Part shown: positions 681 to 25,487 of the stretch, in pieces | Layout of the letters: every line of letters begins with the position of its first letter | How positions within the stretch are numbered: the stretch's first letter is position 1 | From: Synechococcus sp. WH 7805 | GTDB lineage: Bacteria; Cyanobacteriota; Cyanobacteriia; PCC-6307; Cyanobiaceae | Reading direction: 5' to 3' | Length of the DNA: 64,000 nt | NCBI RefSeq assembly: GCF_000153285.1 | Contig: NZ_CH724168.1 | Coordinates: forward strand, 2,395,455 to 2,459,454 | The notes under the pieces: generated by a model | What the model saw: only the letters and a program-made list of their open reading frames with translations | Told to the model about the DNA's origin: nothing | The model's database searches: none | Position numbers and translations under genes: made by a program

Positions 681-683
681 GCT

Positions 684-2232: not shown

Positions 2233-2245
2233 ATTGCTTGCAAGA

Positions 2246-6541: not shown

Positions 6542-6594
6542 CGAATGAGCAATGAATCACGACTTCGATACTTCCATGTAGGACCTGAGTTAGC

Positions 6595-6630: not shown

Positions 6631-6633
6631 TTG

Positions 6634-7752: not shown

Positions 7753-7847
7753 ACGACTCTGAAGCCGCTCTGCCCGATGGAGTAAGGCAGCACTCCTTCG
7801 CTTTGGTGAGTAACCAATGGTGCTGCGTACGCACAGATCAAGCGGCG

Positions 7848-8098: not shown

Positions 8099-8099
8099 A
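7881..8099 (+). pseudogene. S-family gene, copy interrupted by in-frame TAG
   Basis: The frame from ATG 7881 reads MPFNTQMTLALLQELLLEL to a TAG at 8013-8015 after 44 codons. It then continues in the same frame, 'LLVDWMDPILTTDEADRL...GWHLGVSL', to TAA 8097-8099. Alignment with the intact copy at 2781 puts the TAG where that copy has a Glu codon (G to T change). It could still make a 44-residue protein. No signal for stop-codon read-through is visible. Confidence 0.75.
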
Positions 8100-8245
8100 C
8101 CCAGTCATTGCAGTGCATTTGAACCTCTGTGATGAACATCACAGGCACCTTTGACTCAGATTATCGAGGGGACTAGTGACTCTGGAGATGGTGTGTGTAT
8201 CGGAGGGGGCGACCCCAGGCGACACTCACGAACCAACTCAAACAA

Positions 8246-9292: not shown

Positions 9293-9319
9293 TCCCATTG
9301 CCTGGGAGCCTGATGCTTA

Positions 9320-9427
9320 TGCGATGAGCTGAAAGCGATAAACGCTAACGAGCCAAAAGCATAAGGCGTGATTGTCGCTATCCATCTCCCGACAAAACAT
9401 TCACCCCGTCGCAAGGCAGGGTTTTTT
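9320..9427 (+). repeat. T element, copy 4
   Basis: GAGCTGAAAGC, then GATTGTCG...CGACAAAA with loop CTATCCATCTCC, then CCCCGTC-GCAA-GGCAGGG (9404-9421) and six T (9422-9427). The terminator stem has one mismatch and a shortened loop compared with copy 2. It begins 28 bases after the gene at 8246-9292 and probably ends its transcript. It is followed directly by an S copy and then a P-like segment, so this is the most complete T-S-P unit. Confidence 0.75.
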
Positions 9428-9440
9428 GTTGCCATCAATA

Positions 9441-9691
9441 GCGGGGAATGCTTTCAGCAGTTGCAGCTGGCTAATGCCCTTCAACACTCAGATGACGCTT
9501 GCGCTGCTGCAGGAACTGCTCCTTGAGCTTCGTGCCAACGAGCCTGATGACTTCAAGGCTTGGCTGTCTCTAGGCATCGAACGGCTAGGAACGCCTGCTG
9601 TTATTTAGCTGCTGGTGGACTGGATGGACCCAATCCTCACGACAGACGAGGCGGACAGGCTGGTGGGTTGGCACCTGGGGGTGAGCCTCTA
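9441..9691 (+). repeat. 251-bp direct repeat, copy B
   Basis: Partner of 7848-8098, two mismatches in 251 bases. Such near identity in a non-essential segment implies a recent duplication or ongoing gene conversion. Homologous recombination between the copies would excise a 1593-base circle carrying the 8246-9292 gene. Confidence 0.95.
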
Positions 9692-9692
9692 G
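9474..9692 (+). pseudogene. S-family gene, second copy with the same in-frame TAG
   Basis: Reads the same 44 codons as the copy at 7881 and stops at the same TAG (9606-9608); the C-terminal remainder stays open to TAG 9690-9692. The shared nonsense change shows the duplication happened after the mutation. Confidence 0.75.
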
Positions 9693-9728
9693 AACTTTTG
9701 GGTGATAAAAGAGGCTGCAATCGAGCAA

Positions 9729-9755
9729 ATAAATCCCCCGATTGAGGGAGGCGGC
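9729..9755 (+). repeat. Diverged P-like palindrome (copy 5)
   Basis: AAATCCCCCGATTGAGGGAGGCGGCC, preceded by GGCTGCAATCGAGC, resembles the P middle and one palindromic end. It lies between the S copy and the GIY-YIG gene, at the place where P is expected in a T-S-P unit. Confidence 0.4.
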
Positions 9756-9784
9756 CGTGCCTGGGCTGTTGCCAACCTTGATTT

Positions 9785-10405
9785 ATGACTGAAGGCATCG
9801 TTTACGTCCTCACGAATCCGGCCATGCCTGGCATCGTGAAAATTGGAAAGACCACCCGTGGCATGGGTGCTCGTCTCAACGAGCTGTACTCGACTGGAGT
9901 ACCACTGCCGTTTGAGTGCGCGTATGCCGCCAGGGTTGATGACGAGAGCAAGGTTGAGCGTGCGTTTCACCAGGCGTTCGGCCCGTATCGCATCAACCCA
10001 CGTCGGGAGTTTTTCGACATTGAGCCAGAGCAGGCGATTGCACTGCTGGAGCTAATGGCTCTTGAGGACATGACGCCTGCATTGCAGGAGGAAGCCAATC
10101 AGGTTGATGTTGAAGCCAAGGCTGGCGCTGAGAAGTTGAAGCGGTCACGTAGACCACCCATTAACTATCTGGAACTTGGAATACCTGTTGGCAGCACACT
10201 GCTCTACATCGGTGATGGTCAAACCACTTGCACTGTTGCTGATGGGCGCAAGGTGGAATTTCAAGGCGAAGTGATGTCAATTTCAAAATTGACGGCAGAC
10301 CTGCGAAACATTCCAGGAAGACCCATCAACGGACCTGCTTACTGGTCTTTTAACGGGCGCTTACTGGGTGATATCTACGAAGAGGCCTATAGCCAGGCTG
10401 ATTGA
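9785..10405 (+). CDS. GIY-YIG (T5orf172/Mug113-type) nuclease-like protein with C-terminal modified-base-reader-like domain
   Basis: Residues 4-90 form a GIY-YIG family domain of T5orf172/Mug113 type: 'GIVYVLTNPAMPGIVKIGKT' (Y-V-L...V-K-I-G), 'RLNELYSTGVPLPFE', then 'VERAFHQAF' and 'NPRREFFDIEPE'. Residues 125-200 ('GIPVGSTLLYIGDGQTTCTV', 'ISKLTADLRNI', 'GPAYWSFNGRLL') resemble the small C-terminal domain often joined to GIY-YIG or methyltransferase proteins (RAMA/DUF4357-like); that assignment is tentative. It is followed, 24 bases later, by an HNH endonuclease gene in the same direction. The pair may act on foreign or modified DNA. Confidence 0.7.
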   Translation: MTEGIVYVLTNPAMPGIVKIGKTTRGMGARLNELYSTGVPLPFECAYAARVDDESKVERAFHQAFGPYRINPRREFFDIEPEQAIALLELMALEDMTPALQEEANQVDVEAKAGAEKLKRSRRPPINYLELGIPVGSTLLYIGDGQTTCTVADGRKVEFQGEVMSISKLTADLRNIPGRPINGPAYWSFNGRLLGDIYEEAYSQAD

Positions 10406-10429
10406 TTGGTTCCTGAGACCATAACTGAA

Positions 10430-11167
10430 ATGTCTCTTATACAAAACCCGGATACGAAGCAGCAGTTTTATGAGTGGATGCTTGCTGAGGGCAGTCTTAC
10501 TGAAAAGAGCTGCAAGTCTTACTGCGGTGCGATTTCTACTATTTCCAGATGGGCAGTCGAGGAGAACGTCCTCGCAGGATCAATTTATGATGTCGTCGAT
10601 TTATCGGTTTTCCTAGAGGCAAAAGAGCTTGCATCTGGGACCAATGAATTCGTGGTTCGCAACATTAGAGGCAGAAAGATGTTTAGTAGCGCTCTGGATT
10701 GGTACGAAAAGTTTTTGAGGCACGCCTATGTTTTCGTGGGGGATGCTGAGTCCAGGGAAGTTGTGTTAACTACGTCCTCTCTGGCTTTGCGGGAGTCGAG
10801 GGTTGGGCAGGGTATTTTCCGCCGTCAGCTCAATGACTACTGGGGAAATATGTGCGCTGTCACTGGATACCTGGACACTGACGCTGAAAGCATCTTGATT
10901 GGCTCCCACATCAAACCATGGGCAAAAAGCTCAAATCATGAAAGACTTGATCCTTATAACGGGCTGCTGCTGACACCCAATTTGGACAAGTTGTTTGATA
11001 AGGGCTATGTGTCCTTTGCGAGTAATGGAGTAATACTGATATCAGGCTCGCTGGTATCACCAGATGTTTTAGGTTTGAGTGCTGATATGGCTATTAACGA
11101 GGATAAGTTCGATGGTCGGCATCAGGCTTATTTAGATTATCACCGTGCTGAATTATTCAAAGATTGA
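10430..11167 (+). CDS. HNH endonuclease, restriction-enzyme type (245 residues)
   Basis: The C-terminal half has the HNH layout of restriction-type endonucleases: 'FRRQLNDYWGNMCAVTGY', 'ESILIGSHIKPWAKS' (the H of HNH), 'ERLDPYNGLLLTPNLDKLFD' (the N and final residues), then 'GYVSF...GVILIS'. The N-terminal 110 residues ('SLTEKSCKSYCGAISTISRWA') resemble a helical DNA-binding domain similar to the SAM-like N-terminal domain of recombinases. ATG 10430 is preferred over TTG 10406, which immediately follows the upstream stop. No cognate methyltransferase is in the window, so it could be a modification-dependent or orphan nuclease. T copy 5 begins at its stop codon. Confidence 0.75.
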   Translation: MSLIQNPDTKQQFYEWMLAEGSLTEKSCKSYCGAISTISRWAVEENVLAGSIYDVVDLSVFLEAKELASGTNEFVVRNIRGRKMFSSALDWYEKFLRHAYVFVGDAESREVVLTTSSLALRESRVGQGIFRRQLNDYWGNMCAVTGYLDTDAESILIGSHIKPWAKSSNHERLDPYNGLLLTPNLDKLFDKGYVSFASNGVILISGSLVSPDVLGLSADMAINEDKFDGRHQAYLDYHRAELFKD

Positions 11168-11172
11168 CCCTT

Positions 11173-11253
11173 TGCACGGGAAAAGCAGGGGCGTGGTTGT
11201 CGCTATCGATCTCCCGACAAAATATTCACCCCGTCATTAATGGCGGGGTTTTT
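11173..11253 (+). repeat. T element, copy 5, terminator of the nuclease pair
   Basis: GCACGGGAAAAGCAGGGGCG, then GTTGTCG...CGACAA around loop CTATCGATCTCC, then CCCCGTC-ATTAAT-GGCGGGG (11229-11248) and five T. It starts within six bases of the HNH stop codon. Confidence 0.8.
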
Positions 11254-11330
11254 GTGTGCTTACAAAGCTTGGGGAGAGGGTGAAAACAAGACAATGTAAC
11301 TCGTAAACCATCCACCAACCAAGAGAGCCC

Positions 11331-11356
11331 AAAAAAATAGCCCGCAAAAGCAGGCT
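11331..11356 (-). terminator. Intrinsic terminator of the 11398-13014 gene
   Basis: On the minus strand: AGCCTGC-TTTT-GCGGGCT followed by ATTTTTTT. It lies 42 bases past the stop of the RTX-like gene. Confidence 0.75.
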
Positions 11357-11397
11357 TGGAAATAGAAACGATAGGAAGATAAAATTCCTAATTTGAA

Positions 11398-13014
11398 TCA
11401 AGCTAATTCAATCATATCGTTCTGATTTACAATATAGACAGAACCTTCTTGAAGAAGAAGCGATTGGTCATCAGCCAAGCCGGCAATGCGTTCAACACTC
11501 CTTAGATCCATCGAGACGCCATCGACGCGGGTAAGTATGTTGTTTTCAAACTCGTAGATCCCTGTCGTCAATTTAATAATATCTATGCCTCTTCCACCAT
11601 TGAAATTGCCTGTGCCAAAACCAAGGATAAAATCATTTCCACTACCTAATCTTGTAGTGCCATCGCCGCCGAAGTCACCATCGAGTGATTCGATGATATC
11701 ATCACCACCGCCTAGCTTGATCGTTCCAAAGTTAGTAATTCCCTGATTGCTTTCAATCCCATCAAAAGCAAATCCAGCAACTACATCATTACCCGCTCCA
11801 AGTTTAATCGTGCTGGATGAATCAAGGAGAATACCTGAATTAAAAAAGCCACCAACGGCTTCACCTTCGATTAGATTGTTACCACCCTTTGATTGAATTG
11901 TCGAATTTTCGAGCTCGATTCCACTTGTAACTGATCCTCCTTTTGAAATAGCTGCGCCAAGGACAAAGTCGTCACCATTTCCAAGCTTAAGAAGAGCCTG
12001 ATTATCGACGCTACCGATGCTGATGATACCGGACGTTATTTGTTCGCCAGCTGAAAACGCCTCACCAGTAACCCTATCAGAACCAGCACCTAACGAAATG
12101 TTTGAGAATGCATTACCGATACCACCAACTCTACCTCCAATAGCCTCCTCTGAATTATCGGCAAATGCAACACCTTCCATCACATCGTTACCACCTCCTG
12201 TGCTTATGACAGATCCGTCCCTATTAAGGATTCCAGCGATCTTGCCACCATCGAGTAAACCGGTCAAATCATCAGCAACGCCAAAGACAAAATCATTTCC
12301 CAAGCCTGTTGAAATAGTTGAGAAATCGTCATTCTCGATACCAGCGGCTTCATTAAGAGCGGCTGCTTGACCATCAATCAAATCATTACCTCTTCCTGTT
12401 TTAATAAGACCTCCTGAGATATTTTCAACTCCTTCAACATCAAAAGTGGCTACAGCATTACCGACAATGCGATCATTACCGTTGCCTGAGTCAATCAAGC
12501 CTCCAGGATTGAAGATACCTTTTACATTCTCTACACCTGAATCGGCACCGCTGATTAAATCAAGTTGGTCGCCGGTGGAGATCACGCCTGTGGGACCATT
12601 GCTGATGCCTCCAGTAGCTCCGATAACAAAGTCTTCGCCTCTATTAAAATCAATAAAACCGTCATTAAGGAATACTCCAGTAAGTAGATTGTCCCCAAAT
12701 CGATTATCATCAAAGATCACACCTTGGTTAAAAAGAACAGGTGCAATAAGTGTTCCATTCAATTCAAAATCCTCTCCTTCCTGAATAATGGTTAAAGGTG
12801 CAATTTCGATAGACCTTCCCGGAACAAAGGCTTCAAGAAGAAGACGTTCTGCTTGGCGTTCAATTTCTCCTGGTGCAGCAGGCTGACCATAAAGTTCTGC
12901 AGTAATATTACCGATAATCTCTAGAGCGTCTCCAGCAATGTCTGTGTTGAATTCGATTAAAGTTTCAAATACTTCATCAAGGTCGATGTTCATTGGGGAG
13001 TTTTCCACTGTCAT
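11398..13014 (-). CDS. Repeat-rich RTX/hemolysin-like calcium-binding protein (538 residues)
   Basis: After an 80-residue acidic N-terminus, the protein is built of about a dozen repeats of roughly 35 residues. Each has a 'GxGNDxVxG' calcium-binding-like turn (GSGNDFILGFG, GAGNDVVAGFA, GNGDDFVLGAA, GRGNDLIDGQA) separated by 'GIxNxGxI' segments. This gives a beta-roll or beta-helix appearance. It has no classical signal peptide, as is normal for proteins of type I secretion, but no transporter is encoded here. Low GC and the repeat structure fit a secreted structural or adhesive role. It lies between T copies 5 and 6 on the opposite strand, with its own terminator. Confidence 0.7.
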   Translation of the reverse strand: MTVENSPMNIDLDEVFETLIEFNTDIAGDALEIIGNITAELYGQPAAPGEIERQAERLLLEAFVPGRSIEIAPLTIIQEGEDFELNGTLIAPVLFNQGVIFDDNRFGDNLLTGVFLNDGFIDFNRGEDFVIGATGGISNGPTGVISTGDQLDLISGADSGVENVKGIFNPGGLIDSGNGNDRIVGNAVATFDVEGVENISGGLIKTGRGNDLIDGQAAALNEAAGIENDDFSTISTGLGNDFVFGVADDLTGLLDGGKIAGILNRDGSVISTGGGNDVMEGVAFADNSEEAIGGRVGGIGNAFSNISLGAGSDRVTGEAFSAGEQITSGIISIGSVDNQALLKLGNGDDFVLGAAISKGGSVTSGIELENSTIQSKGGNNLIEGEAVGGFFNSGILLDSSSTIKLGAGNDVVAGFAFDGIESNQGITNFGTIKLGGGDDIIESLDGDFGGDGTTRLGSGNDFILGFGTGNFNGGRGIDIIKLTTGIYEFENNILTRVDGVSMDLRSVERIAGLADDQSLLLQEGSVYIVNQNDMIELA

Positions 13015-13393
13015 TTTAAAAGCCGTGAATCTGAGGTGAAGTTGCGCACTGCGAGAATTAAAGTAATCAGGCTTGGGATATGAGGTTTCAGTGACTCAAA
13101 TCCGGCGCCTAGAAAGTGTATCAAGAATAAAGATGATTCGAGGTCATCAATATTAAGAAATTTTGCAAGGATTTTCGCTTTAGGCATGCTCGCATAATAC
13201 TTATGAAACAACTATGAATGACATCTGATTGCTGTGCTCCTACCGATACACTTTGAATTTTTAAACAACTCTTGAGCCCTAATTCGCCCTTTAGCATACA
13301 TTTTCCTTCTGACATTGCTCAGGACCGCTGCACGACAACTGTTTTGACTTTATAAAGGAACATATTTCTCTAGCTGTGAGCCATGTATGACTT
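13015..13393. other. Non-coding AT-rich stretch upstream of the RTX-like gene
   Basis: No protein-like frame is seen on either strand. This stretch holds the promoter region of the minus-strand RTX-like gene (not resolved) and leads into T copy 6. Two 60-65 codon frames here on the minus strand have no sign of being genes. Confidence 0.35.
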
Positions 13394-13475
13394 GCAAGGG
13401 GAAAGCAGGGGGCGTGGTTGTCGCTATCGATCTCCCGACAAAACATTCACCCCGTCAGCAATGACGGGGTTTTTT
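13394..13475 (+). repeat. T element, copy 6, ending in an intrinsic terminator
   Basis: GCAAGGGGAAAGCAGGGGGC, GTTGTCG...CGACAA around CTATCGATCTCC, then CCCCGTC-AGCAAT-GACGGGG (13450-13469) and six T. The terminator stem has T-A where copy 2 has T-G and copy 1 has C-G, so the stem is preserved by covariation. P copy 4 follows at once. Confidence 0.8.
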
Positions 13476-13481
13476 GCTGCT

Positions 13482-13544
13482 CCCCCAACTGGGGGAGGCA
13501 AATAGCTGCAAACGGGTGGGTTTATCCCTCAGTTGGGGGATGTG
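13482..13544 (+). repeat. P palindromic repeat, copy 4
   Basis: CCCCCAACTGGGGGAGGC at the left and ATCCCTCAGTTGGGGGATGTG-type sequence at the right, with middle AGCTGCAAACGGGTGGG. It is joined directly to T copy 6, with no S segment. Confidence 0.75.
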
Positions 13545-13679
13545 TAGATCCTCTAGTCAGCCGAAAGTAGCTCTGATCCCGGTTCTACCAGAACCACTGG
13601 AACAAAAGCAGCGCCAACAACTGCTGCCCCTTACCCAGAAGCCAACCTTTACCCGCAGATGATACTGCGCTGATTCAGT

Positions 13680-15515
13680 ATGACTATTTTGACTCGCGGA
13701 ATTGCTGAAGGCTTAATCCGCAGGCAAGGCCTAGACCTAATCATTCCCGATACCTACACAGAGATTGCACCATTTGCATTTAACAGTCAACCAATTAATA
13801 GTGTTGTAATTCCTGATAGCGTAACGGCAATTGGCGAAGCGGCATTTGAGTTTACTGATCTAACTCGGGTCACTCTTCCTCAAGGCCTTAAAGAGATATC
13901 AAGGGATGCTTTTGGCGTTACACGCTTGACAAGCGTAGATATTCCCGACAGCGTTGAGACAATCGGATTTCGCGCCTTTGCTGGTAGCCCTATTGTTGAT
14001 CTAAGGCTAAACAACGGCCTAAAATTGATTGATAACTCTGCCTTTCTTGCAACAAAAATTGAAACCTTAGTGATTCCAGATAGCGTAGAAACAATTGGCT
14101 TCAAAGCTTTTGCGGCGTTAGATTTGGACCCATCAAATAGAACTTTGAAAAGCCTTGATCTAGGCTCTGGTATTACAACCATCAATAGCAAGGCTTTTGA
14201 AAACCAACAATTAGGCGGTAATCTAAAGCTTCCTGATAGTCTTACTTCTATTGGTGGCGAAGCCTTTGGCAACAATGAACTGACCAGCATTGAAATTGGT
14301 TCAGGGCTGAAGGTTCTCGATGGTTTTTTGTTTAACAACCTTTCCAGTATTGATATTCCTAACACCGTGACTGTGGTTAGGGGCCTTGATGGCAATCAAC
14401 TCACCAGTATTGAAATCCCAGAATCAGTTACCGTTGTTAGTGGACTTTCCGATAATCAGTTGTCATCTGTTGTCATACCTAATAGCGTAACTGACATATG
14501 GAATGGTGCATTTGCGAACAACCAGTTGACTAATGTTGTTATCGGAAACTCGGTCGAAAGAATTGGTAGCGATGCTTTTAGAGGCAATCAGCTAACAAGT
14601 ATAGATATCCCCGGCAATGTAATTGACATAGGCAACTATGCATTTGCAGACAATCAATTGCAAGAGCTGAACCTTGATAGCTCCCTGTCATTTAACAACT
14701 TCATCAATCTTGGAGTATTCCAAAATAATCAGCTGTCAAGAGTAGTCATTCCTGAAGGCATTGAAGTCATCAAGGGAGGTGCTTTCAGTGGCAACTCGCT
14801 TACAAGCGCTGAATTTCCTGACAGTCTTGTACGCATCGAAGGTGGTGCATTTCAGGATAATAACTTCACAACAGTTGTTGTGCCTGATAACACCAGCTTG
14901 TCTGGTTTTGCGTTTGATTTAGATGTCGAGATATTTAGAGAGAGTTTTGCACCGGCAACAGTTGTCAAGGATGTCAACTACACACTACAGAGTAATGAAG
15001 ACAACCTGATCCTGACAGGTGTCGAACCCTTGAGAGGCAATGGCAATGAGTTCATCAACATTATCGAAGGTAATGCTGGTAACAACAAACTCAGAGGCTT
15101 CTTTGCTCCAGACATTCTCAAAGGGAATGATGGTCGTGACAAGATCAAAGGTGATGAAGGAGCTGACACTCTGATTGGTGGTGTCGGTGGGGACATCCTC
15201 ACTGGTGGCAGCGGCAGCGACAGCTTTGTCTACGAGACCATCACTGACTCAGGCGTCACACGAAAAACGCGTGACAAGATCACTGACTTCCAGGTCGGAG
15301 AGGACCTGATTGATCTCTCTCAGATCGATGCCAATCCAAACCTCTTTGGTGATCAAGCCTTTGAGTTCATCGGGGCTGCCAAGTTTTCGGAAGCTGGTCA
15401 AGCACGATTCAAGAACGGTTTACTCAGACTCAATGTTGATGATGACCGTCGGGCAGAGTTCCAAGTCAAGCTCAAAGGTGTGACTGAGCTGTTTGTTGAC
15501 TCACTGATTCTCTGA
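13680..15515 (+). CDS. BspA-type leucine-rich repeat protein with C-terminal RTX domain (611 residues)
   Basis: Residues about 25-420 are some 16 LRR_5 (BspA/Treponema-type) repeats of about 23 residues, with the pattern 'IPDSVTxIGxxAF...LTSVDIPDSV'. Repeats of this class are used by surface proteins for binding partners. Residues about 440-520 hold RTX nonapeptides (GNDGRDKIKGDEGADTLIGG). The last 90 residues ('TDSGVTRKTRDKITDFQVGE', 'FIGAAKFSEAGQARFKNG') match the C-terminus of the 3127-3909 protein and are the likely type I secretion region. There is no N-terminal signal peptide. It is probably an extracellular binding protein; the ligand is unknown. Confidence 0.8.
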   Translation: MTILTRGIAEGLIRRQGLDLIIPDTYTEIAPFAFNSQPINSVVIPDSVTAIGEAAFEFTDLTRVTLPQGLKEISRDAFGVTRLTSVDIPDSVETIGFRAFAGSPIVDLRLNNGLKLIDNSAFLATKIETLVIPDSVETIGFKAFAALDLDPSNRTLKSLDLGSGITTINSKAFENQQLGGNLKLPDSLTSIGGEAFGNNELTSIEIGSGLKVLDGFLFNNLSSIDIPNTVTVVRGLDGNQLTSIEIPESVTVVSGLSDNQLSSVVIPNSVTDIWNGAFANNQLTNVVIGNSVERIGSDAFRGNQLTSIDIPGNVIDIGNYAFADNQLQELNLDSSLSFNNFINLGVFQNNQLSRVVIPEGIEVIKGGAFSGNSLTSAEFPDSLVRIEGGAFQDNNFTTVVVPDNTSLSGFAFDLDVEIFRESFAPATVVKDVNYTLQSNEDNLILTGVEPLRGNGNEFINIIEGNAGNNKLRGFFAPDILKGNDGRDKIKGDEGADTLIGGVGGDILTGGSGSDSFVYETITDSGVTRKTRDKITDFQVGEDLIDLSQIDANPNLFGDQAFEFIGAAKFSEAGQARFKNGLLRLNVDDDRRAEFQVKLKGVTELFVDSLIL

Positions 15516-15526
15516 CTTTTCGCTGG

Positions 15527-15560
15527 GCATACCCGTCAGTAATGGCGAGGTTGTTTGTTG
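15527..15560 (+). repeat. Degenerate T terminator remnant (copy 7)
   Basis: CATACCCGTCAGTAATGGCGAGGTTGTTTG resembles the terminator end of T, but both the stem and the T-run are damaged. It lies just after the LRR-RTX gene and is followed by an S-family segment, as in copy 4. Confidence 0.55.
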
Positions 15561-15602
15561 CCATCAATAGCGGGGAGTGCTTTGAGCAGTTGCACCTGAC
15601 CA

Positions 15603-15719
15603 ATGACCTTGGACACACAGATGTCCCTGGCGCTGCTGCAACTACTCCTAGCGCTTCGCGCGAACGACCCTGAAGGCTTCAATGCTTGGCTTCATTGCCA
15701 TCCTGAGCGCAATAGCTAG
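15603..15719 (+). pseudogene. S-family gene, truncated copy (39 codons)
   Basis: MTLDTQMSLALLQLLLALRA, then 'NDPEGFNAWL', aligns with the copies at 7881 and 9474. It then diverges and stops at TAG 15717-15719, missing the 'DWLDP...GWHLGVSL' half. The leader GCCATCAATAGCGGGGA is shared with the copy at 9441. Confidence 0.65.
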
Positions 15720-15754
15720 GTGAGCCTTTCCCTGATGTTTATTTTACGACCCGC

Positions 15755-16114
15755 ATGATCAATCTCGGATTGCCCGCCCGCGCTCTTTTGGCAATGGGAG
15801 GTGTAGTGCTCATCTGGGGTAGCCCCGGTGAGATCGGCACCCGCAGCAAGGGGGCAGATAGCTGGGAAGATGAGACCAGTTTTGCGGCCCTTCAACTGCG
15901 TGCCCTCGGGGCTTTAAAGATGGGCGCAGGTCTGGGCCTGCTTGGTGCTTCTCTGGCCGGGGTATCCAATGAGCAGACCAAAAGTGCAGCTCACCGGCTG
16001 GCTGTAGAAGCAGCGGCCAAAACGGAGCCCAAGCCACAGCCACCTGCTTCAGCCCCCAAGGCCCCGCTGATGCCGCCGAATCTCCCGCCCCCGCCGGGTA
16101 GACCTAAAACTTGA
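15755..16114 (+). CDS. Hypothetical protein with proline-rich tail (119 residues)
   Basis: An N-terminal hydrophobic segment (ARALLAMGGVVLIWG) and a second one around residues 55-70 (MGAGLGLLGASLAGV) suggest membrane association. The last 35 residues are Pro/Ala/Lys-rich (PPNLPPPPGRPKT). No family is recognised. GC content is higher than in the cassette array. It overlaps the next frame by four bases (TTGA). Whether it belongs to the integrated element or to the array is unclear. Confidence 0.5.
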   Translation: MINLGLPARALLAMGGVVLIWGSPGEIGTRSKGADSWEDETSFAALQLRALGALKMGAGLGLLGASLAGVSNEQTKSAAHRLAVEAAAKTEPKPQPPASAPKAPLMPPNLPPPPGRPKT

Positions 16115-16323
16115 GCACTGCACACTCGTCAACGATCTACTTCAATGGCTATGTGTCAGCACCCGCTGCCCGGGCAGCCCTGAACCAACTGCTCGCCACC
16201 CTCCTCAGCCCCGCTCTGGCTGTTGATAACGAAAACCTCTCGGCTGAACCTGGGAGTCGCATCGACTTCTGCATCGAGCGGGTAAAGGTTGAAGCATCAA
16301 TGGGCACTGCTTTCGTTGCTTAG
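16111..16323 (+). CDS. Hypothetical small protein (70 residues), uncertain
   Basis: The frame opens at TTG 16111, overlapping the stop of the previous gene in a TTGA arrangement that suggests translational coupling. The product (TAHSSTIYFNGYVSAPAARA...) has balanced composition, but no ATG start and no recognised family. Confidence 0.3.
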   Translation: MSTAHSSTIYFNGYVSAPAARAALNQLLATLLSPALAVDNENLSAEPGSRIDFCIERVKVEASMGTAFVA

Positions 16324-16427
16324 TGCGCCCCGTATCGCTTCCTCGCCCTTTTGCAGCCCCTTAAACAGCACATTCGGCATCCGGCGCCTCCCGTTATGGC
16401 ACCAGCCCAATAGTCAAAATTGCAAGC

Positions 16428-16748
16428 TCATTGGTCTAGCTTTGCCAGCTTTATGGCCTGAGTTACTGCCGCGACAGCAGCACCCATCTGATTTGTGTCG
16501 TGAGCCTTCTTGATCAATGCATGTAGGACTTCCAAAAGCTCGGCGGTGTATTGAGGGCGTTCACGGTTGAAGACCTCATAGATCTGCCTTGATAGTTCGT
16601 GTAGGTAGGCGTCGCAAGTACGACTTGCAATACCCCAATGCTCCGCAGCGAAGACATAGCAGTCTGAAGTTGTTGCACCCTTTTGTTTCAGCTTGCGGAG
16701 TTCATTCACCCGCCTTTGCTTTTCGTCTTTGCCAATACGTGCTGCCAT
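16428..16748 (-). CDS. HTH protein resembling a phage small terminase subunit (106 residues)
   Basis: The N-terminal half 'KDEKQRRVNELRKLKQKGAT...YVFAAEHWGIASRTCDAYLH' has the layout of a helix-turn-helix like that of terminase small subunits (a helix, then 'W-G-I-A-S/T-x-R-T-x-x-x-Y'). The C-terminal half is helical and Ala-rich. Small terminases bind the packaging site of phage DNA. In satellites a private copy redirects packaging of the helper phage. It is the last gene of the minus-strand series, separated from the helicase gene by the repeat-rich gap 16784-17011. An HTH regulator is the main alternative. Confidence 0.45.
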   Translation of the reverse strand: MAARIGKDEKQRRVNELRKLKQKGATTSDCYVFAAEHWGIASRTCDAYLHELSRQIYEVFNRERPQYTAELLEVLHALIKKAHDTNQMGAAVAAVTQAIKLAKLDQ

Positions 16749-16783
16749 GACTCCATTCTGCTGCGTCTTTCAAGTTTGCAAAG

Positions 16784-17011
16784 GGGATGGAACAGGGGAA
16801 CAGGGTGAAACGCCCTATTTCACGCTCAGCCTTATAGGGCTGTATCTCTCTCTCTGTGTGTATGTAGTGAATACAGAGAGATATGACCTATAGAAGCTAA
16901 AGAAGATTTACCATGTTCCACCCTGTCCCAATTCTCTAAAAGCCTTGCTGTATCTACTGGGACAAGGTCTTTTCTTGATTCCCTGTCCCCGCTTGGTGCA
17001 CAAGGTTGTCC
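16784..17011. other. Candidate replication origin with GGGACAGGG-like iterons
   Basis: Non-coding stretch between the helicase and terminase-like genes. It holds repeats of one motif: GGAACAGGGG (16789-16798), GGGAACAGGGTG (16796-16807), CCACCCTGTCCC (16918-16929, inverted), GGGACAAGG (16959-16967), CCCTGTCCCC (16981-16990, inverted) and ACAAGGTTGTCC (17000-17011). An AT-rich part and an inverted repeat TCTCTCTGT...ACAGAGAGA (16849-16857 and 16873-16881) lie between. Iterons next to a primase-helicase gene are typical of plasmid and satellite origins; use as an origin is inferred. Confidence 0.45.
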
Positions 17012-17013: not shown

Positions 17014-19578
17014 TCAGTCATCGGTTGGCTTGGGGCGATGTTTCCGGAGCTCAAGAAGCCTGCCTTCGATTTGAGCTAACACTGTTTTGCTGATGAAGCC
17101 TGTGTCAGCGGTCTTCGAATCCCTATTCCATTGGAAGTGCAGGTCAGCCCGTTTCCACTTGGCAAGGGTGCTGTCCCAATCAACCCCGGACCGAAAGTCA
17201 TGCACATCGAACATGACGAGAGGAATAGTGTCAGTTGCTTCTCTGCGCCAAATTGTTTCGTCGACTGTGAAGCCAAAGAAGCGAGCGGTCAGCCAACGGT
17301 TGTTTGGGTCAACGCCGCGATCACGCGCCACTGATCGAGACAGCTGCCGTCGTGGTTGATGAAGGTGCGGCAGAGCCTTGCGAAGTTGTCCGATGAACCG
17401 CGCATCGGCTAGGGCCTTCTTGCCGGTGGCGTGACAGAACAGGCGGTAGGCATCAATGAGGTCAACCTGATCTGCTTCAACCGTCCCGTCAGTAGGGACA
17501 AGACAGTGGTCGATGAATTCAGAGAGAGAGTCCGTAGAGGCCGCGGCTTTGGCTTGAACGCGTTGGACTTCTTCGTCATCAGAACGCCCTTGAAGGATGT
17601 CGATGGCTTCTTTGCGGTCCATGGCCAGCGCCCATGAGGCAATGGCGCCAACTTCAGTGGCGAGGTCAGCTTCAAGGTCGCCGTCGTACAAGGACCGGTC
17701 CCGTTCGCCAGGGATGGTGGGGACTACGAATGCCCGCCGCATCCAGCCGGTGTTGCCGTCGTCATCAACGAACATCGGCATCTTGGTCATGGCCAGCACG
17801 AAGCGGCCAGCGAAATCCACGGTGACTTCTTCGGATTCAAAAAGCCGCCGTGCCGTGATCATGGACTGGTCAACGAGTTCGTAGAAGGCGCTGTACTTGG
17901 ACTGCTTGCCGATCAAGTCACCGAAGGTAATCAGGCGTTTCCCGAGTACGGATTGATAGATGGCTTCTTTGCCATCGAGTTGATCTAGCCGCGACAGCGC
18001 ACTGATGGCATGGGTTGGGAATAGCCTCCGGATCACGCCATTGACCAAGGCGCCTTTGCCGGAACCGGAAGCACCTTCAAGCACTAGGGCCTTCCCTGAC
18101 GGCATGGTCGGATCGACGATCATCCGCATCCCAGCGCGAAGCATTTGGTGATGAGCCTTGTCGTAGCTGGTCTGCAGCAGGTGATGGAAGGCGGGACCGA
18201 GCTGGCCGGTGCCGGGTGCGCAGTAATTCCCTTGGATGCAATAGGTGCAGCCGTGCTCTGGGGCATGGTCAAGCAGTTCACCGGTGGTGACATCAAGCAC
18301 GCCATTCGTGAAAGGGATTAGGTGTGGCGACCCATCAAGGCGCGGGTCATCAAGGCGAATCTGCAGGTAACCAGAGATTCGTTTGACGTTGTCGAGCGTG
18401 CTGAACCGAAAGCGGGGGATGTCCCGTTCGCTTTGAGGCGGCTCGTAATAACGCTCAAGGTCTTTGGACAGCCAATGCTTGACGTCATGGCCGGAACGGC
18501 GTTCCCAATGATGGAGTTCTTCTGTCCACCGCCAGAACTGCAGGTTGCGAGCGACCATCTGCCCGCCATTGACGGCGTTGAGATTGTGAATGACGCAGGC
18601 TTCCAAGGTGGTGGCGGAATCCACGGAATAAACGGGCTGACCGCTGCCTTGGCGTTCTCGTCTTGCGGACTCCCTTTCCGCCCTTGCAATTAATGCCTGC
18701 TTGCTGGCGAAGATCTTTTCGAGGTCACTTTTTTTGACCCCTGCCCGCTTGTAGATGACCTTGAACAGCGCACCGGCTTCACCGGTGGATAGACAACGAG
18801 CGGCAGTTTTGGCGAGTTGCTCTGCTGCCCTTGCCTTCAGCAGAGGCACTCGACCGGCTTCGGCATTTTTATTGGCTGCCCGCCATTGCTCATCAGTTGC
18901 ATTAGCCCAAATCTGCGCAAGGCGGAACAGGTAATCCTTGGCGCGGGCAACGCTGCCGATGACGTTCATGACGTCTTGCTGGCTGGCGTTATTGGAGAAA
19001 CAGAATTCAGTCAGGCCCCCCTTGGGATGGTCAGGCATCCATGGGAGATGGCCAATCTTCCGGTCTTGCTCCAGTCCGCAGGCCACAAGGATCCGCCATA
19101 CCTCCAAGACAAATGGAGTGTCGGGGTCAAGGATGTAAGGGACCCCCGGCAGCTGGCCTTCCATGCAGCGGAAGTACGACGGCGCTCCGATCGCACCGCA
19201 GGGGATTCCATGGCGAAGAAATGGCGCAGCACCGTCTTTCCATCCTTCGGTGATGGCTTGCGGCTCTTCCTCCGGCGGCACCCAAACGATTGGTTTGACG
19301 CCAACAGTCGGGAGGTACTTCGGCGCAGTTTTGCCATTAGGTCGCTTGATTTTCCCGTGACAACGCAGCTGGCCGTAGGTCTTGCCGTCACTGCTTCCGT
19401 AGGGAAAGAACAGACCTGTCGGGTGAATGATTCCGGTGTTTGACCGGCAACCGATACCGAGGTCTTCAGCTTCAGCGGCATCAACGGACCGCACGCCCGC
19501 TTCAACTGCCCAATCGATGTTCGCTTCAGTCCAACCTTCTGCGCGGAGGTGTTCGAGGTCATCAGAAATGATCGCCAT
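17014..19578 (-). CDS. Primase-helicase: N-terminal TOPRIM-like domain and SF3/D5-type helicase (854 residues)
   Basis: Residues about 40-140 resemble a DUF3854/TOPRIM-type domain ('QAITEGWKDGAAPFLRHGIP'). Residues about 320-450 match the D5/P4-type primase-associated region with the hallmark 'IPFTNGVLDVTTGEL'. Residues about 495-660 are a superfamily 3 helicase: Walker A 'EGASGSGKGA' at 501-510, 'LITFGDL' as Walker B-like, and 'VLAMTKMP' as the sensor segment. Proteins of this architecture start replication of plasmids, phages and satellites. The start ATG overlaps the stop of the upstream gene (ATGA). The gene is full length and appears intact. Confidence 0.85.
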   Translation of the reverse strand: MAIISDDLEHLRAEGWTEANIDWAVEAGVRSVDAAEAEDLGIGCRSNTGIIHPTGLFFPYGSSDGKTYGQLRCHGKIKRPNGKTAPKYLPTVGVKPIVWVPPEEEPQAITEGWKDGAAPFLRHGIPCGAIGAPSYFRCMEGQLPGVPYILDPDTPFVLEVWRILVACGLEQDRKIGHLPWMPDHPKGGLTEFCFSNNASQQDVMNVIGSVARAKDYLFRLAQIWANATDEQWRAANKNAEAGRVPLLKARAAEQLAKTAARCLSTGEAGALFKVIYKRAGVKKSDLEKIFASKQALIARAERESARRERQGSGQPVYSVDSATTLEACVIHNLNAVNGGQMVARNLQFWRWTEELHHWERRSGHDVKHWLSKDLERYYEPPQSERDIPRFRFSTLDNVKRISGYLQIRLDDPRLDGSPHLIPFTNGVLDVTTGELLDHAPEHGCTYCIQGNYCAPGTGQLGPAFHHLLQTSYDKAHHQMLRAGMRMIVDPTMPSGKALVLEGASGSGKGALVNGVIRRLFPTHAISALSRLDQLDGKEAIYQSVLGKRLITFGDLIGKQSKYSAFYELVDQSMITARRLFESEEVTVDFAGRFVLAMTKMPMFVDDDGNTGWMRRAFVVPTIPGERDRSLYDGDLEADLATEVGAIASWALAMDRKEAIDILQGRSDDEEVQRVQAKAAASTDSLSEFIDHCLVPTDGTVEADQVDLIDAYRLFCHATGKKALADARFIGQLRKALPHLHQPRRQLSRSVARDRGVDPNNRWLTARFFGFTVDETIWRREATDTIPLVMFDVHDFRSGVDWDSTLAKWKRADLHFQWNRDSKTADTGFISKTVLAQIEGRLLELRKHRPKPTDD

Positions 19579-20539: not shown

Positions 20540-20565
20540 AAAAAAGCCCCGGCGTGGGCCAGGGC
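20540..20565 (-). terminator. Intrinsic terminator after the TOPRIM gene
   Basis: On the minus strand: GCCCTGG-CCCACG-CCGGGGC followed by six T. It lies 35 bases past the stop of the TOPRIM gene. Confidence 0.8.
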
Positions 20566-20600: not shown

Positions 20601-21719
20601 TTATTCAGGCGAAGGTGGCAATGAAGCAACACCGTTGTTGACTGCCTGCTCCAATCGTCGTGGGTTGTACAACGCACCAACGGAATCAAACATCGCCAGC
20701 ATCCTGGTGATCGCATCAACGTGACCGGCGGCTTCGGTGCTGGCCCGTCTGTTCTCCTCACGCCACTGTTTATCACCAAAGTGGCATAACCATCTCCACA
20801 GCTCGTCACGGATCAATGCACGGGCAGCGGTTGGGCTGGCGATGATCGAGTTTGCTTCAACTTTCCGGGCTCCGTACTCACGCAGGTAGCTCTGTACGTA
20901 GGGGAAGTCATGGTGCTTGTGCTTTGGATCTGAAAGGTCTTCACCGCTGCTGGTCTCCAGCCCGTCGATCCACAGCAAACCGGCGTTGTCCACAAACTCG
21001 GCATTGAGCCCGAAGCGGATGATCCGACCGTCATCGGCCATTTCCTTCAGCTCGTATTCCCAGTCGAGAACCTTGGCCAGTGGCATCAAGTTTTCCAAGA
21101 TGGCGTCGGACATCCTCACGCCCATTGGATCCAAGTCACCGCAGAACAGGATCACCGGAATCAGGTGATGAGACTCTGCCCATTTGCATTCTTCGATAAG
21201 CGCCACCCTGCTGTTCACGTCGGCCTGCCCCTTGCTTGCAAACCGGCGCACAGCATGGGGCAACTCCGGTTCAAACAGCTTGATCAAGTCGCGCTTTTCG
21301 GTCCAGATGATCGGGAAGAACTCCTGATGCTTCCAGTAGCTGCTGGGCCAGTAACGCTTGGCGCGATCCAGTGAATCTCGCAGTTGGCGGTTGATGTATT
21401 CCCGTGGGGTTTCCTCCTCGTCGTGAGCATCGTGGCCAGACAAGGCACGGGTGGAATCAGCGCCGACCAGCTCAAAAGGGATCAACCCTTCCTTGCGACG
21501 ATCGGCCAGCCATTTGCCAGCCCAAGTGAAATCGCCTTTGGTGATGATGCCTTCGGACTCAAGGGCGTAAAGCCAAGATCGAGCTACAGGGGCGAAACCA
21601 AGACGACCAACGTATTGGCGCATCCATGCGACCACTTCACGCACATCGGCGTGGAACTGCAGTCTTCTGGCTTCACTGACCCTGCCGCTGCCCATCCGGG
21701 GCAATTCGGTGATGGTCAT
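20601..21719 (-). CDS. Spo11/TopoVI-A-like TOPRIM protein (372 residues)
   Basis: Residues about 25-95 look like a winged helix: 'FAPVARSWLYALESEG' followed by 'ADRRKEGLIPFELVGADSTR'. Tyr51 sits where Spo11/TopoVI-A proteins place the DNA-cleaving Tyr, though the surrounding match is weak. Residues about 135-215 form a TOPRIM domain of that family: 'IIWTEKRDLIKLF' (Glu141), 'FASKGQADVNSRVALIEE', then 'VILFCGDLDPMGVRMSDAI' (Asp195, Asp197). These give the E...D-x-D metal-binding set. No B subunit (GHKL ATPase) is present in the window. It could cut DNA, or be a binding or primase-like protein. Terminators lie on both sides, so it is a separate transcription unit. Confidence 0.6.
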   Translation of the reverse strand: MTITELPRMGSGRVSEARRLQFHADVREVVAWMRQYVGRLGFAPVARSWLYALESEGIITKGDFTWAGKWLADRRKEGLIPFELVGADSTRALSGHDAHDEEETPREYINRQLRDSLDRAKRYWPSSYWKHQEFFPIIWTEKRDLIKLFEPELPHAVRRFASKGQADVNSRVALIEECKWAESHHLIPVILFCGDLDPMGVRMSDAILENLMPLAKVLDWEYELKEMADDGRIIRFGLNAEFVDNAGLLWIDGLETSSGEDLSDPKHKHHDFPYVQSYLREYGARKVEANSIIASPTAARALIRDELWRWLCHFGDKQWREENRRASTEAAGHVDAITRMLAMFDSVGALYNPRRLEQAVNNGVASLPPSPE

Positions 21720-21762: not shown

Positions 21763-21783
21763 AGCCCCCTATTGACGGGGGCT
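21763..21783 (-). terminator. Intrinsic terminator before the TOPRIM gene
   Basis: On the minus strand: AGCCCCC-GTCAATA-GGGGGCT followed by TTCTTTT. It lies 14 bases past the stop of the 86-residue gene and ends the early operon. Confidence 0.7.
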
Positions 21784-22430: not shown

Positions 22431-23060
22431 TCAAAAGGGCAAAGGGTCGGCTTCGATTTCGGCAATGGTTTCTTCGACACCAAGGAAGGTGTTGAGGATT
22501 GACAGGCATTCAGGCCCGACACCACGAACACGGGATTGATCGACGGTCAGCGCTTTCCCGCAGCACATGCAGTGAGTTGCGGCATCAACCGCAAACTCCC
22601 GAATGCCGGACGGGTCAGCGTTGAACCCCACGCAGGCCCTGGCGATCGCTTCGGCGTAAAGCACCGTGCGGGGCCAATCGGCCGATCCTGCTTTCCGGAA
22701 GAACTTGATGCTCATCCCGGTCAGCCCAATGCAAATCCCTTCAGGCGCGACGAAGAACACGGATGGTTTCCAGCCAAGGCGCTTGCCGTTGCTACGGCTG
22801 ATGCGTGCTTCGGCCCAGTTGCCATTGGGCTTCAGCATCCATGGCTCAAGGTTCACGTTGAGGCGAAACCCCATCCGCTTCTTGTCCTGCGGCAGTCGGC
22901 ACAGGCATTGATCAAGGACGGTCAAGTCACAACCAACAAGCAGCTGAACTTCTTTGAAATGCCCCCGGTGATCCAGCATCGGACCGGTAGGGGCGAAGAC
23001 GTCGAAGGTTCTGCCGTTTGAGACTTGTGTCCCAACCTGCTCGGCAAAGACTTCAGTCAT
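22431..23060 (-). CDS. Zinc-cluster protein with DUF6011-like motif (209 residues)
   Basis: The C-terminal part has 'HCMCCGKALTVDQSRVRGVG' followed by PEC. This is the C-x2-C...G-x-G-P-x-C arrangement of DUF6011-type zinc clusters common in phage and element proteins. The N-terminal 140 residues have no recognised family; they include 'PWMLKPNGNWAEARISRSNG' and 'FFVAPEGICIGLTGMSIKFF'. It lies in the minus-strand operon between two small orphan genes. The role is unknown; such proteins often bind nucleic acid. Confidence 0.6.
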   Translation of the reverse strand: MTEVFAEQVGTQVSNGRTFDVFAPTGPMLDHRGHFKEVQLLVGCDLTVLDQCLCRLPQDKKRMGFRLNVNLEPWMLKPNGNWAEARISRSNGKRLGWKPSVFFVAPEGICIGLTGMSIKFFRKAGSADWPRTVLYAEAIARACVGFNADPSGIREFAVDAATHCMCCGKALTVDQSRVRGVGPECLSILNTFLGVEETIAEIEADPLPF

Positions 23061-23312: not shown

Positions 23313-23467
23313 GTGAATTGCCGATAAAAGGTTTCAACTGCTCGACTGCGCAGTTGTTTGGCATCGGGCCATCGCCCTTTGCAGGTTTCTTGCTCATGGA
23401 GTTCACGGATGATCTGGCGCATTGCCATCTCAGTCGCCGCACTCCCTGGCGTTAACGGGGCACGCAT
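23309..23467 (-). CDS. Hypothetical small protein, 52 residues
   Basis: ATG 23467 to TGA 23309-23311 reads MRAPLTPGSAATEMAMRQII, then 'RELHEQETCKGRWPDAKQLR' and 'SRAVETFYRQFT'. It fills the space between the excisionase-like gene (16-base overlap) and the 79-residue gene (overlap at the stop). The composition is protein-like and basic. It may be a small DNA-binding protein. Confidence 0.5.
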   Translation of the reverse strand: MRAPLTPGSAATEMAMRQIIRELHEQETCKGRWPDAKQLRSRAVETFYRQFT

Positions 23468-23706
23468 TGCTCACTAGTGCGAATGGACAGGGCCTGCTCC
23501 CAAGCACGCAACGTCAACTCCGGATCCCAAACCAAGGCTTTTGATTCAGGAGACTTCCGACGAAAGTGAATCCCCGGTTCAAGAAAGCGTGCGACCTTCT
23601 TGCGGCGGTTTTCGTGAAAGTCTGTCCGGCGACGAAATAACGTCTTGGAATTATTCAGGCCAAGAAGCTTCAGCACGTCCGCAGTGGACGCAGTGAAATT
23701 GGACAT
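23452..23706 (-). CDS. Excisionase-like DNA-binding protein (84 residues)
   Basis: The start ATG 23706 (MSNFTASTADVLKLLGLNNS) is preferred over an upstream extension to 23802 whose composition is poor. The product 'STADVLKLLGLNNSKTLFRR' followed by 'FLEPGIHFRRKSPESKALVW' and 'DPELTLRAWEQAL' matches a winged-helix/MerR-like domain: recognition helix, then a K-x-P-x-x-x-x-L-V/I-W-D wing. Small proteins of this kind lie beside integrases and act as excisionases or regulators. About 300 bases separate it from the integrase gene upstream. Confidence 0.6.
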   Translation of the reverse strand: MSNFTASTADVLKLLGLNNSKTLFRRRTDFHENRRKKVARFLEPGIHFRRKSPESKALVWDPELTLRAWEQALSIRTSEQCVPR

Positions 23707-23881
23707 CGAATGTTTGACGGTTCTGCTTATGTCTTCCCACAGGGAAGCACCACGCGACAAAGCAGATTGGTCACAGTCGAGGACACCCGCCGGCACAGCC
23801 ACACATCAACCAGTCCCGAAGGATTTGAGTTGAAGGACGGTTCAATCTCGACAGATTCAAACTAAGCAAGGTGTCCGCCCC

Positions 23882-24004: not shown

Positions 24005-25267
24005 TCAGCTCCCCCCGTTCATGGCCTCGAATGCTCTTGCCGTCGCTTCGTCGCTGCTGGTCAGGTAGTAAGCGTTATGGGTCAGGTCGCTGTGGCCCAT
24101 CGCATTGGAGACCAGTGCTGATGGCACGTTGCGAGCGTGACAGCGGACTGAGTAGCTGTTCCGGAAGGAGTACGGGCGCAGCCATTTCCCTTCAGCTTCT
24201 GCTTTAGCTGCCAGTCGCTTCCATACCGAATTCCGACCAAGGAACTGATTGATGTCGGCAGCGCCGCGCTTCATTGATGGAAAAGGCATCAGCCCTGCCT
24301 TGAATGCTGCTGTCAGGTCTCCGCAGATGTCATTGCCTTCTTCGTCCTTGGAAGGGCATGGAAAAAGGAAGCGTGGCTCGGTTTCGGTCTTCTTCGTCTT
24401 TCCGCCGCAGGCTTTGCGGTAGTTGCAGAACAGCTGCTCTGCACCGGTGGCCGGATTGACGCGGACTTCAAGCTTCAGTACCTCAATAGGGCGCAGGCCA
24501 TAGGTATCCATCAGCAGCAGGACGTTTTTCCAAAGGGGACCCTTGCTGTTTTCAACGGACACCAGCAGCTCCACCACCTCGGCATCGCTCAGGGCCTTGA
24601 CCGGGCGCTCTGCGCTCTTGGGTTTGCCGCTGCCCTTCAACTTCAGCTTCAGTGAGTCGCGGAGCATCCATGCGGGATCCAGCCCTTCGTGGTCCACGCC
24701 GTAGGTCAGCATCCGCACTACAGCATCAACGCACTGCTGACGAGCACGGGCCTTGTCGGTCCACCCCCCGGCTTCGATGGTGGCGTCAATCAGCTTGTAA
24801 GCACCGCTGGGGGCGTCCTTCCCTGTCAGTAGCTCGATGGCCTGCCCGCAGTACCGCTTGTCGCCCTCCATCGTCTTAGTGCTGACCTTGGTGCCGTTGC
24901 GCTCGCGGTCTCGGTAGTAGGCCAGCTTGATGGCTCTCCAATTGATGCCGGTGATCGGATTAACGGTGCCCGCTTCATCGGTCGCGGCTTCCTTGGGGTG
25001 GAGCTGTGCCCACGCCTCATCAAGGGTGGCTCCGTTTTCGACTGCTTGATACAGGTCTGACAGCAGGGTTGAAACGGGACCAATGCAACCGATCTCCCAT
25101 TGATGCCCCAGCGTCTTGGTCCAGCTGTCCTTGCCGCCAACACCTTGGCGAACACGAAGGCGGACCTTGCTGCCGGATTTGACGACGGACCATCCGCGGG
25201 GGACCCCCTTTTCTTTGATGGCCGCTTTCAGTGTTTGGGACCAATCGGTGGTGAGCGTCTTAGCCAT
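24005..25267 (-). CDS. int: Tyrosine recombinase (integrase) of the tRNA-Arg element (420 residues)
   Basis: Full-length tyrosine recombinase. The C-terminal catalytic domain has 'DTYGLRPIEVLKLEV' (first catalytic Arg), 'RPYSFRNSYSVRCHA' (second Arg box, with Tyr in place of the usual His of H-x-L-R), and 'AMGHSDLTHNAYYLTSSDE' (GH box and the Tyr nucleophile). ATG 25267 is taken as start; the frame is open to 25399, but that part overlaps the GGACAAG sites and the terminator. It lies next to the 3' end of tRNA-Arg, its likely integration target. It would insert and, with the excisionase-like protein, excise the element. Confidence 0.9.
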   Translation of the reverse strand: MAKTLTTDWSQTLKAAIKEKGVPRGWSVVKSGSKVRLRVRQGVGGKDSWTKTLGHQWEIGCIGPVSTLLSDLYQAVENGATLDEAWAQLHPKEAATDEAGTVNPITGINWRAIKLAYYRDRERNGTKVSTKTMEGDKRYCGQAIELLTGKDAPSGAYKLIDATIEAGGWTDKARARQQCVDAVVRMLTYGVDHEGLDPAWMLRDSLKLKLKGSGKPKSAERPVKALSDAEVVELLVSVENSKGPLWKNVLLLMDTYGLRPIEVLKLEVRVNPATGAEQLFCNYRKACGGKTKKTETEPRFLFPCPSKDEEGNDICGDLTAAFKAGLMPFPSMKRGAADINQFLGRNSVWKRLAAKAEAEGKWLRPYSFRNSYSVRCHARNVPSALVSNAMGHSDLTHNAYYLTSSDEATARAFEAMNGGS

Positions 25268-25284
25268 ATGGAGTAACTGCTTTG

Positions 25285-25343
25285 CTTGTCCACTACACGT
25301 TACCACCAAAAGTGGACAAGGAGTGGACAAATGGGTCTTGTCC
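25285..25343. promoter_or_regulatory. Four GTGGACAAG motifs upstream of the integrase (possible arm-type sites)
   Basis: CTTGTCCAC (25285-25293, inverted), GTGGACAAG (25312-25320), GTGGACAA (25323-25330) and CTTGTCC (25337-25343, inverted) lie between the integrase start and the tRNA. Their position suggests integrase arm-binding sites that could also autoregulate int. Confidence 0.55.
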
Positions 25344-25355
25344 GCTTGCGCAGGT

Positions 25356-25389
25356 AAAAAACAAGGGCTCCCGGCAAAGCCGAGAACCC
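25356..25389 (-). terminator. Intrinsic terminator downstream of tRNA-Arg
   Basis: On the minus strand: GGGTTCTCGGC-TTT-GCCGGGAGCCC (11-bp stem with two G-T pairs), then TTGTTTTTT. It lies 25 bases after the tRNA and would stop tRNA transcription from entering the integrase gene. Confidence 0.8.
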
Positions 25390-25413
25390 TGTCGCTCACT
25401 AGGTTTTTTCTGA

Positions 25414-25487
25414 CGCCCCCTGATGGATTCGAACCATCGACCGACTGCTTAGAAGGCAGTTGCTCTATCCAGCTGAGCTAAGGGAGC
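25414..25487 (-). tRNA. tRNA-Arg (anticodon UCU)
   Basis: On the minus strand the 74 bases fold as a cloverleaf: acceptor GCTCCCT with AGGGGGC (one U-G pair), D arm GCTC-AGCTGGATA-GAGC, anticodon arm ACTGC-CTTCTAA-GCAGT with anticodon TCT, variable loop CGGTC, T arm GATGG-TTCGAAT-CCATC, and discriminator G. CCA is not encoded. The 3' end faces the integrated element. Confidence 0.95.

Follow-up and report, generated by a model that had tools for sequence, protein, structure and literature searches.

A Mini-A-type relative of Topo VI-A/Spo11 encoded in a satellite-like tRNA-Arg island of Synechococcus sp. WH 7805

In three sources that describe them (PMC8185306; PMC7614492; PMC11302465), the Mini-A proteins, a name credited to Takahashi et al. 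(2020), are truncated homologues of Topo VI-A that occur in viruses and mobile elements, and no archaeal Topo VIII or Mini-A has been characterised, according to the first of these, a review (PMC8185306). More is known of the A subunit of Topo VI itself. The active site of Methanosarcina mazei Top6A comprises R102, Y106, E202, D254, D256 and E342, the tyrosine acts on the Toprim domain of the partner subunit after a domain pivot, and the substitution E342Q renders Top6 cleavage-prone (PMC13040014).

The window considered here, the whole 64-kb stretch of Synechococcus sp. WH 7805 DNA that was analysed, contains a gene (Table 1) whose product very probably belongs to the same class, as a Topo VI-A/Spo11 relative lacking a B subunit, judging from its sequence relationships. 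The protein is matched by PHROG 6247, 'DNA topoisomerase' (phrog_6247, E = 2.1e-28), and tblastn searches with it recover, among plasmids, the archaeal LC711081, annotated 'Topo mini-A' (33.7% identity, E = 2e-38), and a second annotated match, LC711082 ('Topo Mini-A'), and, among phages, Chryseobacterium phage MA9V-3 (34% identity, E = 6e-41) and five Cellulophaga phages (31% identity, 83% coverage). In the curated HMM libraries it has neither a Pfam or NCBIfam match above cut-off nor a PADLOC family; the Pfam models TP6A_N and TOP6A-Spo11_Toprim do not match it, and they match only two of 48 Mini-A relatives, at best with 1.5e-4. Direct sequence and profile searches of the PDB with Mini-A found nothing. 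The relatives collected in a 63-sequence alignment occur in phages, plasmids, archaea and bacteria, the phages holding the gene among replication genes, for example adjoining polymerase genes. The class recognised in a preliminary description of this DNA already has a name and members on record in phages, plasmids and archaeal elements; what the window offers is a new member of a known family, with an informative context, a cyanobacterial satellite. The reading frame, for which that description gave no strand, is real and lies on the minus strand, and its dN/dS is 0.07-0.11 against two orthologues, 84-85% identical, in two other genomes. Two composite proteins were met with among related loci: in a Dehalococcoidia MAG (L101:8136-9206) a primase/polymerase-like N-terminus precedes the C-terminal half of a Mini-A, either a fusion or an assembly artefact, and a Nitrospiraceae MAG (L114:8609-10795) encodes a Topo VIII-type fusion of GHKL-like and Mini-A-like parts.

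Table 1. Coordinates of the Mini-A gene, its predicted active-site codons, nearby signals and the host island (window positions, except for the second att copy)
Feature	Position	Strand	Remarks
Mini-A gene (B-less Topo VI-A/Spo11-like, 372 aa)	20601..21719	minus	ATG start
Tyr51 codon, predicted catalytic nucleophile, R47-x-x-x-Y51 motif	21567..21569	minus	counterpart of M. mazei Top6A R102/Y106
Glu141 codon ('TEK'), predicted metal-site residue	21297..21299	minus	corresponds to Top6A E202
Asp195-x-Asp197 codons ('GDLDPMG'), Toprim DxD	21129..21137	minus	correspond to Top6A D254/D256
Glu288 codon, predicted 'electrostatic clasp' counterpart of Top6A E342	20856..20858	minus	61/63 E, 2 Q
Terminator-like hairpin upstream of Mini-A	21763..21783	minus	
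Terminator-like hairpin downstream of Mini-A	20546..20565	minus	
24-nt repeat, copy 1, just before Mini-A start codon	21722..21745	minus	conserved upstream in L182
24-nt repeat, copy 2, abutting Mini-A stop codon	20578..20601	minus	88% identical; may be chance
att repeat, 50 bp, exact	25410..25459		overlaps 3' half of tRNA-Arg
att repeat, second copy	G000:C2:2392245-2392294		3.2 kb outside the window, to its left
tRNA-Arg(tct), integration target	25414..25487	minus	
Tyrosine-recombinase integrase	24005..25399	minus	adjoins tRNA-Arg(tct); start codon may be internal
Small DNA-binding/Xis-like ORF	23452..23802	minus	resembles that of L125/L141
DUF6011 protein of the element	22431..23060	minus	
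P4-type primase-helicase (D5_N)	17014..19578	minus	
TerS-like protein, phrog_34910, 106 aa	16428..16748	minus	cyanophage homologue directly upstream of TerL and portal

The residues singled out in the preliminary description (Tyr51, Glu141 and Asp195-x-Asp197) are where it placed them, and they belong to a set of eight (R47, Y51, R75, E141, D195, D197, P198 and G200) that is identical in 63 of the 63 relatives and likewise unvarying across an earlier 48-sequence alignment. Position 288 is glutamate in 61 of the relatives and glutamine in the other two. Predicted counterparts are present for all six Top6A active-site residues, in the form of R47, Y51, E141, D195, D197 and E288, the equivalence of E288 with E342 being likely on the basis of its position and of the alignment of typical Mini-As. 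The R-x-x-x-Y spacing is equal in Mini-A and M. mazei Top6A, and the Glu-to-DxD spacing is 54 versus 52; profile alignment with true Topo VI-A pairs the Toprim glutamate with glutamate and DxD with DxD (E = 2.7e-5). For distant, more typical Mini-As the alignment to true Topo VI-A extends through both domains, over 247 columns that include R-x-x-x-Y (probability 95.5, E = 1.4e-8), and the profile of the N-terminal domain sets R47/Y51 on the R/Y pair of Topo VI-A in a weak match (probability 6.5). The glutamine at the expected clasp position is found in two related satellite Mini-As (L139:9600-10484 and L186:9473-10387), which are possibly naturally hyperactive cutters.

The AlphaFold2 model of Mini-A has a pLDDT of 89.9. 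The best structural neighbours of its Toprim half are Topo VI-A proteins (1d3y, Z 10.0, rmsd 4.0 over 155; 2zbk, 9.9; 9o0g, 9.7), with JetD/MksG ranking next (8b7f, Z 8.8; 7til, Z 8.7) and Spo11 (8urq) at Z 8.0, on a scale on which gaps below 1 are ties, values of 7-8 are common and fold alone separates these families poorly. The Toprims of primase (DnaG, Z 7.0), RNase M5 and type IA topoisomerase score below Topo VI-A (10.0), so that the better match to primase, named at the outset as an observation that would speak against the Spo11 assignment, did not appear; the OLD family is not among the listed structural matches, an absence that excludes nothing. What separates Mini-A from MksG is the tyrosine of the N-terminal domain, because MksG has none at the equivalent position (PMC10123090). 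A search of predicted viral structures with the whole model brought up no match with an E-value below 0.001. Modelled alone, the N-terminal domain is a three-helix bundle (pLDDT 88) in which no wing is seen, and a structural search with it returned unrelated weak matches only; of the winged-helix-like N-terminus with a catalytic tyrosine that had been proposed, the tyrosine is upheld at the sequence level by the conservation of R47/Y51 (63/63), and the wing is not apparent in this model. The distance from Tyr51 to the acidic residues within a monomer, proposed as a test, is an unfair one, since the Top6A tyrosine works on the Toprim of the partner (PMC13040014). Kinship with Spo11/Topo VI-A itself is borne out by the phrog_6247 match, the Toprim fold and profile matches and the invariant residues.

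Residence in a mobile element, also proposed earlier, agrees with what surrounds the gene: a 28.7-kb tRNA-Arg island with an exact 50-bp repeat at its borders, the second copy of which was not found inside the window. Along the minus strand the order in the island is integrase, Xis-like ORF, small ORFs, Mini-A, primase-helicase and the phrog_34910 protein. The last of these has a homologue in Prochlorococcus phage MED4-184 (26.5%, E = 6e-7) that directly precedes TerL (phrog_2, E = 1.2e-39), followed by the portal, and it is therefore identified as TerS by homology and position. That the island is a satellite is well supported by these comparisons, with integrase, att, P4-type primase-helicase and a cyanophage-type small terminase; no capsid match was found among the island ORFs scanned, the cargo ORFs in 1-16 kb having been read by eye only. 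The lack of a B subunit holds genome-wide, with neither the Topo VI-B transducer (PF09239) nor classical Topo VI-A (PF04406) in the genome, and among the ORFs of the element there is no GHKL/B-subunit ORF, fused to Mini-A or separate, and none resembling SMC. Viral contigs, queried with Mini-A and two TerL proteins, yielded no close relative. Read by eye, the cargo appears to include RTX-type repeat and leucine-rich-repeat surface proteins (window 3127-3909, 11398-13014 and 13680-15515), and a GIY-YIG-like protein (9785-10405) is closely similar to a protein from a different genus, where it belongs to a TerL-bearing element (L196:6115-6726). Dispersed repeats of ~100-250 bp (families D1-D4) lie between the cargo genes in window 1-17000, with similar copies in islands of two other genomes (G006 and G018). 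The same genome holds a second, decayed satellite (G000:C2:182764-183671), whose stop-broken TerL is 79% identical to that of L141.

The gene was said to be flanked by terminators, and two minus-strand hairpins (Table 1) fit this; the region has 13 such terminator-like hairpins in total, near the shuffled mean of 10.7. The 24-nt direct repeat at the two ends of the ORF scores only slightly above the region's background of two-copy repeats, and could be a promoter or operator, a cassette border or chance.

Matches to the Mini-A profile, fragments included, are found in 13 of 300 family genomes. Among 12 examined genes, ten have an integrase within ~10 kb, at tRNA-Arg(tct), tRNA-Arg(cct), tRNA-Thr(cgt) and tRNA-Ala(ggc), and in part at sites where no tRNA is visible; an eleventh is situated near tRNA-Pro, together with TerS and TerL. 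TerL is within 6 kb in four of the 12, and one of the genes (L140), interrupted by an in-frame stop, is possibly defective. A tRNA-Arg and copies of att enclose an isolated Mini-A gene in L123 and likewise an additional, stop-containing fragment in L124. In a quick tree the cyanobacterial Mini-As form about four groups, at least two of them forced apart by well-supported branches, suggesting repeated acquisition of Mini-A by satellite-type elements. Neither Mini-A nor Topo VIII is present in most TerL-bearing elements, and type IIB function is an option, not a necessity, for satellites. Nif11/prochlorosin-type leader peptides occur beside or behind several satellites (L123; L140, 15948-17092; L183, 18007-18351; L194, 247-519).

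The most telling comparison is presented by a single tRNA-Thr(cgt) site, occupied in four genomes by elements with 96-98% identical integrases, and concerns the slot defined as the interval between integrase/Xis and the replication genes. The slot holds a Mini-A of the window type in L125, a distant Mini-A in L141 and, beside a 98% identical integrase in L194, an 834-aa Topo VIII (8337-10838), in which a Topo VI-B-like part (residues 5-453, E = 5e-9) is joined to a Spo11-type Toprim (E = 1e-6); in L193, with a 97% identical integrase, no type IIB enzyme was recognised in it. The Synechococcus satellite that carries the L194 Topo VIII also has TerS and TerL, and copies of this Topo VIII, 59-63% identical, are present in two other genomes (G149 and G195). 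A satellite TerL lies within 9 kb of Topo VIII in three of three strong family matches. Mainly because Topo VIII fills the same slot, Mini-A is proposed to do a type IIB topoisomerase-like job for its own element. A broader proposal can be offered only tentatively, as somewhat short of an even chance: that terminase-carrying picocyanobacterial satellites have a dedicated type IIB slot, filled interchangeably by distant Mini-As or Topo VIII, and that Mini-A would act there on its own and without ATP as a double-strand DNA gate on which replication or packaging of the satellite depends.

For the protein of the window, the reading that we consider reasonably probable from the sequence comparisons is that of the satellite's type IIB gate, a homodimer that would use Tyr51 to cut the DNA of its own element in the course of replication or segregation. 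Mini-A would be a homodimeric DNA-cleaving core of the Topo VI/Spo11 kind with no ATPase subunit. In the manner of Top6A, Tyr51 from one protomer would attack DNA at the Mg2+ site (E141, D195, D197) in the Toprim of the other. The product would be a protein-linked double-strand break that could be resealed, made in the element's DNA as it replicates or segregates, and the task may be untangling, relaxing or resolving intermediates ahead of packaging. Against this reading count the wingless N-domain model with its lack of structural matches, the weak profile match of that domain to Topo VI-A, the absence of a recognised type IIB enzyme from L193 and from most TerL-bearing elements and, as regards packaging, the lack of close relatives in the viral contigs. 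Lacking an ATPase, Mini-A would pass strands passively or not at all, and 'topoisomerase' may overstate what Mini-A is, since efficient strand passage is unlikely without one; an ATP-free gate is nevertheless not unreasonable, as one Topo VIII relaxes DNA without ATP (PMC7614492). Of the roles first suggested for the protein, the one in the element's own replication is thus favoured by the exchange with Topo VIII, and nothing positive speaks for an attack on the helper phage.

The same absence from the genome of an ATPase for strand passage would also suit a Spo11-like or terminase-like enzyme making a programmed break that is not resealed, either starting recombination-dependent replication or readying the element's DNA for packaging. 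Kinship with Spo11 (8urq, Z 8.0), the frequent presence of TerS/TerL and primase genes next to Mini-A and the two satellite Mini-As with glutamine at the clasp, as in the cleavage-prone Top6 mutant, all point in this direction; however, exchange with a fused Topo VIII that bears a GHKL ATPase points to gating and not to one-way breakage, and the Mini-A of the window retains its clasp glutamate, so that we regard a dedicated breaker as unlikely. Less probable still, and quite doubtful in our estimation, is a nuclease directed against foreign DNA, attacking the host, the helper phage or a competing phage in the manner of the Toprim nucleases of Wadjet/MksG or Gabija. Its case is made by JetD/MksG being the next-best folds after Topo VI-A and by Mini-A forming its own transcription unit between hairpins, yet the tyrosine missing from MksG is invariant in Mini-A, phage Mini-As stand among replication genes, and PADLOC has no match for Mini-A, the TerS-like protein or DUF6011, that for the primase being marginal. 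A relic that has lost catalysis and now serves as a regulator or structural DNA binder is very improbable: the repeat preceding the start codon may serve as an operator and remnants are known (the L124 fragment with a stop, for example), but all six active-site counterparts are kept and dN/dS is ~0.1.

We rate the significance of this Mini-A and its context as moderate to good on account of the natural exchange with Topo VIII, in which near-identical integrases at one tRNA site accompany a slot with two Mini-A lineages, Topo VIII or neither. The swap opens the way to asking what function is left to a Spo11-like core that has no ATPase, which also bears on the possible origin of Spo11 from a topoisomerase, and, with Mini-A residing here in a compact element of a culturable bacterial type, the role of Mini-As could be tested there. 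The literature on tycheposons, satellites and Mini-A within reach of our search, which did not extend to the founding Mini-A and tycheposon papers, was not found to describe Mini-A in this context.

Compared with the Mini-As already described (LC711081, LC711082), the protein has in common the combination of a Toprim and an N-terminal tyrosine domain in one short protein that is encoded by a mobile element and has no B subunit. The clade of the window differs in having R-G/S-W-x-Y where many other Mini-As have R-Q-x-Y-Y, in an extra stretch around residues 247-282 and in its host, a cyanobacterial TerS-bearing integrative satellite. With Topo VI-A/Spo11 it shares R-x-x-x-Y, the glutamate, DxD and the clasp glutamate, as well as the best fold for the Toprim half, whereas Topo VI has a B subunit and the Mini-A of the window has no such partner. 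Topo VIII, the fused B-A type IIB enzyme of plasmids and integrated elements, has the A-type catalytic module in common with Mini-A and, unlike it, a GHKL ATPase and transducer. JetD/MksG of Wadjet/MksBEFG share the Toprim fold (Z 8.7-8.8), but MksG, without the N-domain tyrosine (PMC10123090), works with an SMC complex, and no SMC is seen in the window element. Finally, the island shares with TerS-bearing phage satellites and tycheposons the tRNA site, tyrosine recombinase, own replication gene, TerS and cargo, and elements of its type differ from those in the recurrent presence of a type IIB topoisomerase-like gene.
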